From positions 1 to 64,000 of the forward strand of contig JAJDVT010000063.1 of the NCBI GenBank assembly GCA_022826005.1: a stretch of 64,000 bases of DNA, in the 5' to 3' direction. Every line of letters begins with the position of its first letter. The first letter of the stretch is position 1. Shown here in pieces: positions 47,546 through 54,413 of the stretch. Made by a program: the position numbers and the translations under genes. This DNA is from Gemmatimonadota bacterium (GTDB lineage: Bacteria; Gemmatimonadota; Gemmatimonadetes; Longimicrobiales; Gaopeijiaceae). The notes under the pieces are model-generated. The model did no database searches and was not told the DNA's origin. It was given only the letters and a program-made list of their open reading frames with translations.

Positions 47546-48270
47546 TCGGACGACTCCCCACGCGGGCCGTATATCCACAGCGTTGAAAACGGCTTTCTCT
47601 GCCGGAGCGACACCGCCCGCCTCCGCCCCAGTTCAAGCCCCGCCAGAAGGGTCATCACCGCGTGAATGCGCTCAGCCCACGGTGCCACCAGGCTCGCGAA
47701 CTCGATCCGTCCCACCCGCCCGACCGCCGCGACGATCAGATCCACCTTTTCCCGCATGGCCACCCTGCGCGCGAAGACTCGGTGATCGCGGTCCCGCTCG
47801 ACGGGCGCCTCGACCGAGAGCGCCACCTCGAAGACTTCGTCCCAGGTTACGGTCAGCGGCACTTCCGCCGCCTGCGTCCGGCGCCGCGGCTCCACGAATC
47901 CCTTGCCGTAGCGGCGGCTCCGGTCGTTCTCCGCCACGCGCAGACGGCCCGCGATCTCGCGAACCTGTTCGTATTCGAGCAGCCGCCGGACCAGCTCCGC
48001 CCGTGGATCGTACTCCTCTTCCCCCTCGGGGCCAGGCATCAGCATCCTCGCCTTGATCCCGACCAGCGTCGCCGCCATTTGGAGGAACTCGCCGGCCTGG
48101 TTCACGTCCGCGTCGCCCAGATCCTCGATCGCACCCAGGAACTGACTGGTGATCCGGGCAATGGGAATGTCGAAGATGTCGATGTCCTGCGTGCGGATCA
48201 GGTGCAAAAGGAGATCCAGCGGACCGTTGAAGCGGTCGGTGTCGACGAACAGCAGCCCGTCTTCCGTCAT
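47542..48270 (-). CDS. scpA: Condensin kleisin subunit ScpA
   Basis: A 242-residue kleisin that bridges SMC and ScpB. The N-terminal FNGPLDLLLHLIRTQDIDIFDIPIARITSQFL and the following EFLQMAATLVGIKARMLMP are hallmark sequence. The C-terminal winged helix (FASLVAPWAERIHAVMTLLAGLELGRR) contacts SMC. The start at 48270 overlaps the stop of the site-2 protease gene (ATGA). Confidence 0.95.
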   Translation of the reverse strand: MTEDGLLFVDTDRFNGPLDLLLHLIRTQDIDIFDIPIARITSQFLGAIEDLGDADVNQAGEFLQMAATLVGIKARMLMPGPEGEEEYDPRAELVRRLLEYEQVREIAGRLRVAENDRSRRYGKGFVEPRRRTQAAEVPLTVTWDEVFEVALSVEAPVERDRDHRVFARRVAMREKVDLIVAAVGRVGRIEFASLVAPWAERIHAVMTLLAGLELGRRRAVSLRQRKPFSTLWIYGPRGESSE

Positions 48271-48914
48271 CCCAGGGTCACCCGCAGAACCCAGTCGTAG
48301 GCGATGAAGACGGGCGACAACACCGTGGCGAAGCCCCCGGGGAAGAGGACGAGTGTGAGAAAGAGTATGCCGATTCCGTACCTGCCGATGGCCCTGTAGC
48401 TCTCGCGGAGAGCCGAAGGAAGCAGGTGGTAGAGGACGTGCGATCCGTCCAGCGGAGGAAGCGGAATCAGGTTGAAGTAGGCTAGAATCAGGTTTATGAA
48501 AACGCCATAACTCAATATGGAGAAAATATTTCCTCCCAGCGGCCCGCCCAGCGGCAGGACCCCGGCGAGCGCGGTTAGCAGGACGAGTCCCAAAGCGCAC
48601 AGGACCACCAGCCCGAGATTGGCCACGATCCCGGCAAGCGAGACCCGGATGTCGCCCGCACGGTACGCGCGATAGTTGCGCGGGTTGACCGGCACCGGCC
48701 TGGCCCACCCGAAGAGGAAGTTGCCCGGGAGCAGGTGGAGGACCACCGGCACGAGGATCGAACCCACGGGGTCGAGGTGCGGAATCGGATTGAGGGTGAT
48801 CCGGCCCAGATCGCGCGCGGTGGTGTCGCCCTCCCGCAGGGCCTGCCAGGCGTGCGCCACTTCGTGAACGACGACGGAAAAGATCAGAACCGGGATGATG
48901 AGGAGAAAGTCCAT
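48267..48914 (-). CDS. Site-2 protease family M50 metallopeptidase
   Basis: A 215-residue intramembrane protease of the compact S2P group. The zinc site HEVAH (about residues 17-21) lies in the first helix, NPIPHLDPVGS is the family signature after it, and the third ligand is in NLIPLPPLDGSHV (about residue 153). Six hydrophobic segments are seen. The start at 48914 places HEVAH correctly. The gene precedes scpA in many genomes. Its substrate is unknown and it may be a housekeeping S2P without PDZ domain. Confidence 0.92.
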   Translation of the reverse strand: MDFLLIIPVLIFSVVVHEVAHAWQALREGDTTARDLGRITLNPIPHLDPVGSILVPVVLHLLPGNFLFGWARPVPVNPRNYRAYRAGDIRVSLAGIVANLGLVVLCALGLVLLTALAGVLPLGGPLGGNIFSILSYGVFINLILAYFNLIPLPPLDGSHVLYHLLPSALRESYRAIGRYGIGILFLTLVLFPGGFATVLSPVFIAYDWVLRVTLG

Positions 48915-48938
48915 TGCGCCGATTTTGCTCGTTCCCCG

Positions 48939-48967
48939 TTGATCGGAGGGGCCGCCGGGTCTAAATT
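48939..48967 (+). promoter_or_regulatory. Predicted promoter of rpsT
   Basis: TTGATC (48939-48944), a 17-nt spacer and TAAATT (48962-48967) match the vegetative consensus well and lie about 50 bp upstream of rpsT. The same short gap must also hold the promoter of the divergent site-2 protease operon. Confidence 0.55.
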
Positions 48968-49017
48968 CCGGTCCCGAAAGTAAACACATCCCGACAGTTC
49001 CGAAAACACACACGCAG

Positions 49018-49272
49018 ATGCCCAACATCAAGAGCGCGCAGAAACGGATGGAGCTGGGCCGGGCCGCCCGCAGCCGGAACCGCGAAGCCAGGTCCATGAT
49101 TCGTACCGCGATTCGCCGGGTGCGCGAGGCCGGCTCCCAGGAGGAAGCGGACCAGCGGCGCCACGCCGCGGTCGCGCTGATCGACAGGGCCGCCGGACGG
49201 CGGGTGATTCATCCGAACAAGGCGGGGCGCATGAAGTCCCAGCTGGACCGCCTGATCAGAGAGCACCAGTAA
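49018..49272 (+). CDS. rpsT: Ribosomal protein bS20
   Basis: An 84-residue protein of the small subunit, binding 16S rRNA helices. MPNIKSAQKRM at the start and VIHPNKAGRMKSQL near the end are the family hallmarks, and the whole is basic and helical. There is no evident Shine-Dalgarno: the upstream sequence is ACACACGCAG before the ATG. In other bacteria rpsT translation is autoregulated and starts at a weak site, which agrees with this. Confidence 0.97.
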   Translation: MPNIKSAQKRMELGRAARSRNREARSMIRTAIRRVREAGSQEEADQRRHAAVALIDRAAGRRVIHPNKAGRMKSQLDRLIREHQ

Positions 49273-49360
49273 ACAACCGGCCGCGCCCGAGAGCGGCGAC
49301 CGGCTGCTCCAGGCGACTCGGCTGGCCCCCGCGGACGCACTGACAAGGCAGAGCGGCGGC

Positions 49361-50653
49361 TCAGGCCCCGTCGGCGACCGCACTCCATACGGTTCGCCCG
49401 CCCACCAGGGTTCGTACCACCCTTCCCGTAACTTCCTCTCCGGCAAAGGGCGTGTTGCGGCACTTGGACAGGAACTCCGCCGGGTCGATCTTCCACCGCG
49501 CCTCCGGATCGACAAGTGCCAGATCGGCAGCTTGCCCCGGCTTCAGCGTCCCTCCGGGGAATCCCAGGGCTCGGGCCGGGCCGGTGGACATGCGCTCGAC
49601 CAGGGTACCCAGTTCCAGGATTCCGGTGGTGACGAGATGGGTGTGGAGCACCGCGAAGGTGGTCTCCAGGCCCACGGCGCCGAAGGGAGCGTCGTCGAAG
49701 GCCTGTTCCTTCTCGTCGTAGTGGCAGGGGGTGTGATCGGTCGCGATGCAGCCGATCGTGCCGTCGGCAAGCGCGGCGCGCACCGCCTCGACATCGACGG
49801 TGGTCCGGAGCGGCGGATCCACCTTGTATTCGGTTCCATAGTCCGCTACGACCTCGTGCGTCAGAAGCAGGTGGTGGGCCGTAACCTCCGCGCTCACGCC
49901 GACTCCCCTGGCCAGGCTCCGGCGAATGAGCGTGGCGGCGGCGGCCGTCGATACCCGTTGCATGTGCAGCCTACCCCCCGTCATTCCCGCGAGCGCCAGG
50001 TCACGGGCAGCGCCAATCTCCTCTGCGGCTGCCGGTTTCCCCCGCAGCCCCAGCCTGGTGGACACCACGCCCTCGTGCATTACCCCGCCGCTCGCAAGGC
50101 CGGCGTCCTCCGGCCGGGCCAGAACCGGGATGCCGAACGACCGCGCGTACTCGAGTGCGAGCCGCATCAGCTTAGATGACTTCACCGACCTCCCCGCGTC
50201 GCTCACGGCAACCGCTCCCGCATCGACCACCTCACCGAACTCGGTGAGATGCTCCCCCCTCCGCCCCGCCGATACGGCCGCCGCGGGAAAGACCCGGGCG
50301 CCCCTCGCGCGCCGCCCCGCGGCGACGACAAACCCCACCGAGGCGGGATCGTCCACCACCGGATCCGTGTCGGGCATGGCAACCACGGCGGTGTACCCCC
50401 CCGCCGCCGCCGCCATCGCCCCCGTCGCGATCGTCTCCCGGTGCTCCCCGCCGGGCTCGCACAGGTGGGCGTGCGGGTCCACGAACCCGGGACACACCAC
50501 CAGCCCGCGCGCATCCAGCACCTCCGCGCTCTCGGGCGCCAGCCCCGCCGCCACGGCCACGATCCGGCCCTCGTCGACAAGCACATCGCCCTGCAGGTCG
50601 ACCCCCGCCGCGGGGTCGATCACCCGTCCGCCGCGAATCAGCAGCCGCGTCAT
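49361..50653 (-). CDS. Dihydroorotase homologue, probably non-catalytic (PyrC'-type)
   Basis: A 430-residue amidohydrolase-fold protein collinear with type I dihydroorotase, as shown by GFVDPHAHLCEPGGE, GGYTAVVAMPDTDPV, DPPLRTTVD, IATDHTPCH and the C-terminal composite beta-domain. Several active-site residues are changed. The substrate Arg of the HxHxREP motif is Cys65, the zinc-ligand His of AHCED is Arg180 (ARPED), and the ligand His of CHIST is Arg233 (QRVST). In the DDG motif one Asp is Ala (SDAG), and the NPPLR Asn is Asp. H61, H63 and D306 remain. The gene order pyrR-pyrB-pyrC' is that of Pseudomonas, where an inactive dihydroorotase homologue is a structural partner of aspartate carbamoyltransferase. 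I infer the same here. An active pyrC should lie elsewhere. Confidence 0.88.
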   Translation of the reverse strand: MTRLLIRGGRVIDPAAGVDLQGDVLVDEGRIVAVAAGLAPESAEVLDARGLVVCPGFVDPHAHLCEPGGEHRETIATGAMAAAAGGYTAVVAMPDTDPVVDDPASVGFVVAAGRRARGARVFPAAAVSAGRRGEHLTEFGEVVDAGAVAVSDAGRSVKSSKLMRLALEYARSFGIPVLARPEDAGLASGGVMHEGVVSTRLGLRGKPAAAEEIGAARDLALAGMTGGRLHMQRVSTAAAATLIRRSLARGVGVSAEVTAHHLLLTHEVVADYGTEYKVDPPLRTTVDVEAVRAALADGTIGCIATDHTPCHYDEKEQAFDDAPFGAVGLETTFAVLHTHLVTTGILELGTLVERMSTGPARALGFPGGTLKPGQAADLALVDPEARWKIDPAEFLSKCRNTPFAGEEVTGRVVRTLVGGRTVWSAVADGA

Positions 50654-50711
50654 GTGCGAACCCCCGCGCCGGCAACCCTCAGCCGCGTCAGGCGTGCCCC
50701 GAGCGTCCGCG

Positions 50712-51691
50712 TCACGACCGCCCCTCCCCCCCCGACTTGGCCGATTCGGCCCGGTCCGGCGCCCCGCCGGTCAGCAGGTACAGCACCGCCATCCGCACGG
50801 CGACCCCGTTCGTCACCTGCCTGAGGATCACCGAGTGCGGTCCGTCGGCCACGTCCGAGTCGATCTCGACTCCCCGGTTCATCGGCCCGGGGTGCAGAAC
50901 CAGCAGCTCGCGCGGCGCCCACTCCAGGCGCTCACGGGTCACCCCGAAGACCCGGTTGTACTCGCGCAGCGACGGTACGAACCCGCCCTCCATCCGCTCC
51001 AGCTGCAGACGCAGCACGTTGAGCGCCTCCGCCCACTCGATCGCCTCCTCCACCCGCCCGAAGACCCGCACCCCCAGCTCCTCGATCCCGGCAGGCAGGA
51101 GCGTATGCGGCCCGCACACCGCCACCTCCGCACCCAGCGTCACCAGGCCGAAGATGTTGGACCGGGCCACGCGGGAGTGCAGCACGTCGCCCACGATGCA
51201 TACCTTCAGCCCCTCGAGGCGGCCGAAGTGGTCGCGCAAGGTAAGAATGTCCAGGAGCCCCTGCGTGGGGTGCTCGTGCGCCCCGTCGCCCGCGTTGATC
51301 ACATTCGACGGGATGCGCGAGGCCAGGAACCGCGCGGCCCCGGGGGACCAGTGTCGCATCACCACCATGTCGATCCGCATCGCCTCGAGGTTGCGGGCCG
51401 TGTCCACCAGCGTCTCGCCCTTGGAGACCGACGAGCCCACCGCACCGATGTTCACGGTGTCGGCGGCAAGCCTCTTTTCGGCGAATTCGAAGGAGATCCG
51501 CGTGCGCGTGGAAGCCTCGAAGAAGAGGTTGACGATCGTCTTCCCCCGCAGCACCGGAACCTTCTTGATCCGCCGTTCGGAGATCTCCTTGAAGGGCTCC
51601 GCGGTGTCGAGGATCACCCGGATCTGATCCGCCGTCAGTCCCTCCAGGCCGACCAGGTCCTTGCCCAGCGCCGCTGTCGCCGCGGCCCGGC

Positions 51692-51695
<4 letters not shown>
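50712..51695 (-). CDS. pyrB: Aspartate carbamoyltransferase catalytic chain
   Basis: A 327-residue enzyme forming carbamoyl-aspartate in pyrimidine synthesis. The carbamoyl-phosphate motif [19 protein letters not shown] (about residues 56-74), the [16 protein letters not shown] loop with catalytic Lys, HPTQGLLDI and the [12 protein letters not shown] region are all intact, so it should be active. The N-terminus is about 10 residues longer than in B. subtilis. The start overlaps the pyrR stop (ATGA), and a 58-bp gap separates it from the dihydroorotase homologue. No regulatory pyrI follows. Confidence 0.96.
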
Positions 51696-52261
<566 letters not shown>

Positions 52262-52426
52262 TCCTTCCGGAAGATGCCGGACCCTGCCCGGACCCCGTCG
52301 TCCTGCCCCTGCCCGCCCTCACGCCCGAGAGTAAGGTAATTGCACCCCGGGCGGCCAGCCAACATGATGATGGACGATTCGACGCCGGCCGGGTCCCGGC
52401 CCGCCACACACCGAACAACCGCGCAC

Positions 52427-52439
52427 GGAGCCCCCCCCC
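52427..52439 (+). promoter_or_regulatory. Ribosome site with a nine-C spacer before the antiporter start
   Basis: GGAG (52427-52430) is followed by nine consecutive C (52431-52439) and then ATG. The spacer length equals the homopolymer length, so slippage during replication would shift the Shine-Dalgarno spacing. No such variation can be shown from one sequence. Confidence 0.5.
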
Positions 52440-54413
52440 ATGTCCCGACCAGCCCCCGGCTTGCCAGGCCTGCTCACCTCGCTCCTCCTCCTCGCCGCCC
52501 CGGCCGGGACCCAGGCGCAGGAGGTGGCCGATGCTCCGAAGGTCATCCTCTCGTCGGTCTCCTTCGCCGTTACCGTACAGGGCGCCCCGGAGCTGTCCAC
52601 GCTGGTCGAAATCCGGGACGCCGGGGGCACGCTCCTCGCCTCGGGGCCGGTGGCGGCCGGGGAGGCCCGCGAATTCAGGAACATCACGATCGGCTCGCGG
52701 GACGCCCTGCCGCTGCAGGTCCGCCTGGGCGACACGGTTACCGAACTCTCCCGCCCCTTCGCGCCCGGCTGGGTCTCGATCCTGCCGCCACTCGTCGCGA
52801 TCGTCCTGGCGCTCATCTTCAAGGAGGTGATCACCGCGCTCCTGGCCGGGATATGGCTGGGCGCGCTCGTGGTGGTGGGCTACAACCCGCTCGAAGCCAC
52901 CTGGAGGCTGATCGACCAGTACGTGGTCCCCGCGCTCGGGGATACCGACGGCGGCCACACCCAGATCGTGGTCTTCAGCATCCTTCTGGGAGGGATGGTC
53001 GGCATCATCAGCCGCAACGGGGGCACGAGAGGGGTTGTCCGGGCGGTGGCGCCGCTGGCGCGCAACCGCCGCCGCGGCAAGATCGCCACCGGCCTGGCCG
53101 GCCTCGGGATCTTCTTCGACGACTACGCCAACACGCTGGTCGTCGGCAACACCATGCGTCCCATCACCGACGGCCTGAAGGTGTCGCGCGAGAAGCTCGC
53201 CTACCTGGTGGACTCGACCGCCGCACCGGTCGCGGCGCTGGTCCCCGTCTCGACGTGGGTGGGGTACGAGGTGTCGCTGATCGGCGGCGGCCTCGGGGCC
53301 GCGGCCGGCGAGGCAACCGGTGCCGACCAGGCGTTTCTGGCCGGGCTCAGCCCCTATGCCGTCTTCATCGAGACCATTCCCTACCTCTTCTATCCCCTGC
53401 TCGCCCTCTCCTTCGTCTTTCTGACCTCGTTCATGAACCGGGACTTCGGTCCCATGGCCCGCGCCGAAGCCCGCGCCGCGTCGGGCGGGGGCGTCCTGCG
53501 CCCTGGATCCCGGCCGGCCGCCGAGATTTCGGAGAGCTTCGTGAACGCCAAGGAGGGAGCTCGGGAGCGGTGGTGGAATGCGGGGATTCCGGTCGCGACG
53601 GTGGTCCTGGTCGTGCTGGCGGGACTCTACACGACGGGACGCGCGGCGGCGGGTGCGGATGCATCACTGCGCGACATCTTCGGAGCGGCCGATCCCTTCA
53701 GCACGCTCCTCTGGGGCTCCCTCGCCGGATGCCTGGTCGCGGCGGCGCTGTCGATCTCGCAGCGGCTGCTCGACATGAAGGAATGCATCGACGCCTGGGT
53801 CGGCGGGGTCAAGGCGATGATGATCGCGATGGTGATCCTCACGCTGGCGTGGTCCCTCGGCGCGGTGACCCAGGACGTCGGAACCGCCGGGTACCTCTCG
53901 GGACTGCTCACCAACGTCGAATTCCCGCTGTTCCTCTTCCCGGCGCTGGTCTTCATCACCTCCGGCGCGATGGCCTTCGCGACCGGCACCTCCTGGACCA
54001 CCATGGCGATCATGATCCCGCTGGTGATCCCGCTGACGGTGTCGCTGGCCGGGGGCACCGGCTTCGCGGACGGCTCCGTTTACGGCATCCTCCTCGCGTC
54101 CACCAGCTCGGTGCTGGCCGGCGCGATCTGGGGCGACCACTGCTCCCCCATCTCCGACACCACCGTACTGTCGTCGACCGCGGCCGCCTGCGACCACGTG
54201 GACCACGTTCGCACCCAGCTCCCCTACGCGGTCCTGGTCGGCGTGGTCGGGCTCCTTCTGGGCAGTGTGGGAACCGCCCTCGGACTCCCCACCTGGGTCG
54301 CCCTGCTGGCGGGCGTGGGCGTGCTGGCGCTCTGTCTGAGGACGTTCGGCACTCCCATCGCCGAAGTCGGCGGCCCCGCAGGGAGCTCGCCCGCCGCACA
54401 GGCGGAACCCTGA
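52440..54413 (+). CDS. NhaC-family Na+/H+ antiporter with an exported N-terminal domain
   Basis: A 657-residue membrane protein. A signal-like N-terminus (LLTSLLLLAAPAGTQAQ) leads to a beta-rich domain of about 95 residues, which is unusual for the family. The NhaC-type core follows, with about 11-13 helices: ILPPLVAIVLALIFKEV, the FFDDYANTLVVGNTMRPI motif, DSTAAPVAALVPVSTWVGYE and AGAIWGDHCSPISDTTVLSSTAAACDHVDHV. The conserved Asp, Thr and His in the last two motifs are the likely ion path. It should exchange sodium for protons. It is divergent from pyrR and convergent with tadA. Confidence 0.9.
   Translation: MSRPAPGLPGLLTSLLLLAAPAGTQAQEVADAPKVILSSVSFAVTVQGAPELSTLVEIRDAGGTLLASGPVAAGEAREFRNITIGSRDALPLQVRLGDTVTELSRPFAPGWVSILPPLVAIVLALIFKEVITALLAGIWLGALVVVGYNPLEATWRLIDQYVVPALGDTDGGHTQIVVFSILLGGMVGIISRNGGTRGVVRAVAPLARNRRRGKIATGLAGLGIFFDDYANTLVVGNTMRPITDGLKVSREKLAYLVDSTAAPVAALVPVSTWVGYEVSLIGGGLGAAAGEATGADQAFLAGLSPYAVFIETIPYLFYPLLALSFVFLTSFMNRDFGPMARAEARAASGGGVLRPGSRPAAEISESFVNAKEGARERWWNAGIPVATVVLVVLAGLYTTGRAAAGADASLRDIFGAADPFSTLLWGSLAGCLVAAALSISQRLLDMKECIDAWVGGVKAMMIAMVILTLAWSLGAVTQDVGTAGYLSGLLTNVEFPLFLFPALVFITSGAMAFATGTSWTTMAIMIPLVIPLTVSLAGGTGFADGSVYGILLASTSSVLAGAIWGDHCSPISDTTVLSSTAAACDHVDHVRTQLPYAVLVGVVGLLLGSVGTALGLPTWVALLAGVGVLALCLRTFGTPIAEVGGPAGSSPAAQAEP

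Follow-up and report, generated by a model that had tools for sequence, protein, structure and literature searches.

Inactive PyrC' partners of aspartate carbamoyltransferase (ATCase) are known from Pseudomonas, from fungi and, by genetics, from Sinorhizobium. In Pseudomonas aeruginosa, PyrB alone is monomeric and the ATCase is inactive without pDHO (PMC7053772). In Sinorhizobium meliloti, disruption of the pyrB-linked dihydroorotase (DHOase) homologue leads to pyrimidine auxotrophy despite the presence of a separate pyrC (PMC5929573). No description of a PyrC' partner in Gemmatimonadota was found in the literature searched.

The window analyzed here is the whole 64,000-nucleotide stretch of contig JAJDVT010000063.1, which belongs to a Gemmatimonadota genome (G000). 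It contains a pyrB-linked DHOase homologue, PyrC', which from its sequence and those of its relatives is probably an independently evolved pseudo-dihydroorotase of the PyrC' type (class A2), retained as a partner of ATCase.

Organization of the pyr operon

The features of the locus and the second DHOase of the same genome are listed in Table 1. The original prediction had placed the homologue correctly at 49361-50653; it is encoded on the minus strand. The pyrR gene overlaps the start of pyrB by 4 bases, and pyrC' starts 58 bases downstream of pyrB. PyrR scored 197.5 bits with its family model NF003549 (cut-off 138). PyrB exceeded the cut-offs of NF002032 (398 vs. 263 bits) and TIGR00670 (305 vs. 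237 bits), and its sequence contained the catalytic motifs STRT, HPTQ, and HPGP. The PyrB family models begin at residue 12, and an N-terminal extension like that of Pseudomonas PyrB is not diagnostic; deletion of the short extension had no effect on the P. aeruginosa ATCase (PMC7053772). No Rfam element, including a PyrR-binding leader, reached the gathering score across 48000-53500.

Table 1. Genes of the pyr locus in the window and the second dihydroorotase of the same genome.
Feature	Position	Strand	Length and start	Remarks
pyrC', degenerate type-I dihydroorotase homologue	50653..49361	minus	430 aa/codons, ATG start	C65, D95, A153, R180, R233, D279, C310; H61, H63, D306 kept
pyrB, aspartate carbamoyltransferase catalytic chain	50712..51695	minus	327 aa, GTG start	
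pyrR, pyr operon regulator / uracil phosphoribosyltransferase homologue	51692..52261	minus	189 aa	
M50-family membrane peptidase homologue	48267..49097	minus		PF02163; downstream of pyrC'
PyrC2, PRK07575-type dihydroorotase	G000 C81:105803-107107			33% identical to PyrC'

The M50-family peptidase gene adjoins pyrC' in many relatives and is at most a candidate component of the system. PyrC' scored 379.8 bits with the type-I DHOase model TIGR00857, above the cut-off of 279.05, which places it in the family; automatic annotation would therefore name it dihydroorotase. The pyrR-pyrB-pyrC order, which had been equated with the pyrRBC' arrangement of Pseudomonas, was indeed present. However, this order is ancestral in Gemmatimonadota and occurs as well in relatives whose PyrC is intact, so that gene order by itself was rejected as proof of the Pseudomonas type.

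Loss of active-site residues in PyrC'

The DHOase of Aquifex aeolicus (3d6n) was used as the reference. The numbering of PyrC' is identical to it for residues 1-190 and higher by one thereafter, with R233, D279, and C310 corresponding to Aquifex 232, 278, and 309. An active type-I DHOase was defined by the zinc ligands H61, H63, D153, and D305, the beta-site pair H180/H232, and the positions R65, N95, and H309, whose presumed role in holding the substrate follows from their E. coli counterparts R20, N44, and H254. In the Aquifex enzyme, zinc is bound by His61, His63, and Asp153, with Asp305 nearby, the second site consists of His180 and His232, and N278 and G154 contact dihydroorotate through the main chain (PMC3880350). 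In the yeast enzyme, Arg18, Asn43, and His262 touch 5-fluoroorotate (PMC8497156).

Six of these positions were changed in PyrC' (D153A, H180R, H232R, R65C, N95D, and H309C in Aquifex numbering), while H61, H63, and D305 (Asp306 in PyrC') were still present in the alignment. The substitutions named in the original prediction could all be read in the protein: Cys65 in DPHAHLCEPG; Arg180 in LARPED and Arg233 in HMQRVST, at the positions of the Aquifex ligands His180 and His232; and DAG instead of DDG in VSDAGR (D152-A153-G154), where Ala153 stands at the zinc ligand Asp153. Three further losses had been overlooked, namely N95D (MPNT to MPDT), N279D (NPP to DPP), and H310C (HAPH to HTPC). The Aquifex H180A/H232A double mutant is fully active (PMC3880350), and thus the loss of both second-site histidines alone proves nothing about PyrC'. 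The argument for inactivity is built on D153 plus R65, N95, and H310.

Distribution of degenerate PyrC in Gemmatimonadota

Orthologues of PyrC were present in 197 of 200 Gemmatimonadota genomes. Three class members with completeness of 90-99% (G002, G105, and G130) had no orthologue at E <= 1e-60 and gave weak amidohydrolase matches or none. Twelve sites were scored in 173 distinct PyrC sequences, fragments included, and all nine core sites were kept in 144 of them. Among the 29 non-intact rows, 27 came from the 26 genomes of the clade to which the window belongs, and the other two came from genomes G132 and G108 of genus g48. The clade comprised 23 genomes of g1, the genus of the window, plus a single genome from each of g6, g16, and g99. 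In the PyrC tree, the full-length degenerate sequences formed a single clade with SH-aLRT support of 100.

The losses were nearly uniform within this clade. R65 was replaced in all 25 readable members (Cys in 24, Ser in one), as was N95 (Asp in 23, Ser and Thr in one each). In all 26 genomes D153 was lost, H233 had become Arg, and H310 was replaced by either Arg or Cys. H180 was changed in just eight members, to Gln in seven and to Arg in one; H180R was private to the genome of the window, and its relatives showed His or Gln. His61, His63, and Asp306 were invariant in every readable member, and some metal binding by PyrC' is therefore possible. In G066 (L062/L063), the only clade member with Ser65 instead of Cys, pyrC' was divided between two contig ends. 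Sequencing or assembly error was rejected as a source of the substitutions, since they are fixed across the 26 genomes and the core sites are kept in the 144 other sequences.

A second case was found in genus g48 of family f4. Four of its five genomes contained an E. coli-type DHOase (TIGR00856), and these were the only four among the 200. The PyrC of G132 (L212) carried N95D, D153G, H233R, and N279S; that of G108 (L211) carried G154T, N279R, and H310Q; G167 (L231) showed N279R alone; and G040 (L344/L348) showed N279S, with N95 unreadable. In G036, PyrC was intact and the E. coli-type enzyme was absent. Three of the changes in G132 fell on core sites lost in the clade of the window, and N95D and H233R gave the same residues as in PyrC'. 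Genus g48 belongs to a different family, and its PyrB is far from that of the window's clade. The loss of PyrC active-site residues in g48 is therefore a separate and partial one.

A second dihydroorotase

A search for a second intact pyrC, proposed with the original prediction, recovered PyrC2 on another contig (C81) of the same genome, and the idea that this genome holds no other DHOase, which would have counted against the original prediction, was rejected. PyrC2 passed the cut-off of NF005751/PRK07575 (631 vs. 529 bits), and its motifs HFRDPG, MPNT, GIKIF (with the IKIF lysine), HCED, HVST, and TDHAPH were intact. All ligand and substrate residues were also intact in the PyrC2 orthologues that were read, with scattered changes elsewhere, such as at the Val of HVST. 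No E. coli-type DHOase was detected in the genome of the window. A third full-length amidohydrolase (C11:13956-15239; L003 1237-2856) was 30% identical to PyrC' and fell below the TIGR00857 cut-off; it was left out of the DHOase count.

PyrC2 was found in 17 of the 200 phylum genomes, exclusively in g1, g6, and g16, and in 25 of 121 family genomes, which belonged to g1 (22 of 23), g6, g16, and g99; these matches had E <= 1e-195, and the next best was 1e-53. The genera with a degenerate PyrC were thus those with PyrC2, and no other surveyed genus had it; the two occurred together in 25 of the 26 clade genomes. The exception, G138, also lacked the conserved NifU-like gene that lies beside PyrC2 in the other g1, g6, and g16 genomes, so that an assembly gap is the likely cause. 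The NifU-like gene was present in the sister genera tested as well, and family genomes without PyrC2 possessed the NifU region, with PyrC2 absent from it. In g99, the NifU-like gene and the PyrC2 gene were on one contig, about 2.9 kb apart.

The PyrC2 rows formed one group (support 91) within a 50-row group shared with Planctomycetota (support 98), and the nearest outside relatives were Planctomycetota sequences, mostly of 61-67% identity. The confinement of PyrC2 to four genera of the phylum, together with its planctomycete relatives, suggested that it was likely acquired from Planctomycetota by horizontal gene transfer, a direction that we infer.

PyrC' might still act as a DHOase alongside PyrC2, using a single metal ion, a modified metal site, or no zinc at all. 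The activity of the Aquifex enzyme without both beta-site histidines and the conservation of His61, His63, and Asp306 across the clade would agree with this, as would a PyrC paralogue of Pseudomonas that does not have the usual zinc residues and is reported to be active (cited in PMC2770081). However, D153, R65, N95, and H310 have gone too in all 26 genomes wherever they could be read, and, in the sequences read, losses of this kind were confined to genera having a second DHOase. Continued catalysis is therefore quite improbable, and a loss of DHOase activity in PyrC' is the reading that we prefer.

Selection, fold and history of PyrC'

Nei-Gojobori dN/dS ratios between close relatives were 0.08-0.22 for PyrC'; sister genera gave 0.09-0.16 for their intact PyrC, and the ratios were 0.09-0.22 for PyrC2 and 0.02-0.06 for the PyrB of the clade. 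Intact PyrC has 84 invariant positions, and 58 of them carry the same residue throughout PyrC'. PyrC' is under purifying selection and is about as constrained as an active enzyme, except at the active site; Pro156, for example, a residue of the active-site loop that never changes in intact PyrC, was variable in the clade. The open frame was full-length in every clade member uninterrupted by a contig end. The loss of many catalytic residues could also be expected of a decaying pseudogene riding along in the operon, but the open frames and dN/dS ratios like those of intact homologues, together with the 58 unchanged positions, led us to reject this explanation, whose probability is negligible.

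The fold of PyrC' is predicted to be intact. The AlphaFold model, based on 49 window and locus sequences, had a mean pLDDT of 89.8 and a pTM of 0.91, and its top PDB match was 3d6n_A, the ATCase-activated DHOase of Aquifex in complex with ATCase, with a TM score of 0.93.

The old active site may now serve as a pocket for a ligand or effector, which would make PyrC' a regulatory subunit of ATCase, more than a scaffold. The replacements at positions 65, 233, and 310 are near fixed and not drifting, and H61, H63, and D306 are retained; both are consistent with such a use. Fixed replacements may equally reflect packing or charge compensation, with R233 and D95 replacing zinc, and the nucleotide effects in P. 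aeruginosa were attributed to destabilization of the dodecamer and not to an allosteric site (PMC7053772). We consider a regulatory role of this kind unlikely. A further proposal, which we hold to be unlikely, is that near-fixed Cys65, Asp95, Arg233, and Arg/Cys310, with His61, His63, and Asp306, form a rebuilt pocket, either an effector site or a charge-compensating one, that controls or stabilizes ATCase. If so, the separate N95D, H233R, and D153 loss in G132 would point to a path by which enzymes can repeatedly turn into subunits.

In the PyrB tree, the clade grouped with G229, a member of family f1 that has an intact PyrC (starred branch), and the pyrRBC' operon therefore looks vertically inherited. 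In the PyrC tree, the PyrC' clade stood away from family f1 on a long stem (0.47), as might be expected if the whole operon had been taken from another phylum already having PyrC'. Such an import is disfavoured by the PyrB grouping and by a gene order that is the phylum's own; moreover, PyrC' shared about 50-62% identity with the intact PyrC of Gemmatimonadota and 43-46% with the degenerate PyrC of planctomycetes. An outside origin of the operon is thus very improbable.

Proposed evolution of a non-catalytic partner of ATCase

The preferred explanation, an independently evolved class A2 partner, can be outlined as follows. PyrC' would derive from the active pyrB-linked type-I DHOase retained by nearly all Gemmatimonadota. 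In the stem lineage of the four genera there would also have been a PRK07575-type DHOase, probably of planctomycete origin, and this second enzyme would have taken over the interconversion of carbamoyl-aspartate and dihydroorotate. Relieved of catalysis, PyrC' may then have lost the bridging zinc ligand D153 and one or both beta-site histidines, as well as the putative substrate holders R65, N95, and H310. Its fold and its position behind pyrB would have been kept because PyrB, as in Pseudomonas, depends on this subunit for assembly or activation; PyrB and PyrC' presumably form a physical complex, which may be a 6:6 dodecamer like that of class A2. No genome between the gain of PyrC2 and the loss in PyrC was found among those of this clade, and the order of the two events is accordingly a deduction.

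The locus showed those features of class A2 that are visible in sequence: a pyrB-adjacent homologue retained under selection, loss of metal and substrate residues, and a separate intact DHOase. The suggestion that PyrC' is an inactive partner of ATCase was thus strengthened at the sequence level, by the second pyrC, the clade-wide loss co-occurring with PyrC2, selection, the place in the operon, and the match to 3d6n. Within the literature searched, the independent origin in Gemmatimonadota with intact sisters, the traceable replacement from another phylum, and the second, partial case appear to be new. The lineage displays the transition itself, with sisters that have an active-looking PyrC and a loss that coincides with the second DHOase, and g48 adds partial losses beside another kind of replacement enzyme. 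This suggests a general rule that can be tested: when another DHOase arrives, the pyrB-linked DHOase loses its chemistry and yet is kept.

Comparison with known systems

Among described systems, PyrB-PyrC' of Pseudomonas (class A2) shares with this locus a full-length pyrB-linked DHOase homologue without the metal and substrate residues, and a separate intact DHOase. It differs in that Gemmatimonadota are another phylum, in which the loss arose next to sister lineages that still have an active-looking PyrC, the replacement is of the PRK07575 type, and His61, His63, and Asp306 are retained. PyrX of S. meliloti (smc01361) is likewise a DHOase homologue adjacent to pyrB that occurs with an essential separate PyrC (PMC5929573). 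PyrX, unlike PyrC', has genetic evidence in the auxotrophy caused by its disruption.

The active DHO-ATC of A. aeolicus (class A1; 3d6n, 4bjh) belongs to the same type-I family and has the fold predicted for PyrC'. Its DHOase, active in the complex, keeps Arg65, Asn95, Asp153, His180, His232, and His309, whereas PyrC' has lost all six; an Aquifex-like active state is probably ancestral in Gemmatimonadota. The type-I PyrC of the Planctomycetota Thalassoglobus neptunius (L199) and Stieleria tagensis (L200) is heavily degenerate, and both genomes also carry a PRK07575-type enzyme. These proteins resemble PyrC' in having lost DHOase residues alongside such an enzyme, but their set of losses is different and their identity to PyrC' is 43-46%; they arose independently or at the least belong to another lineage.
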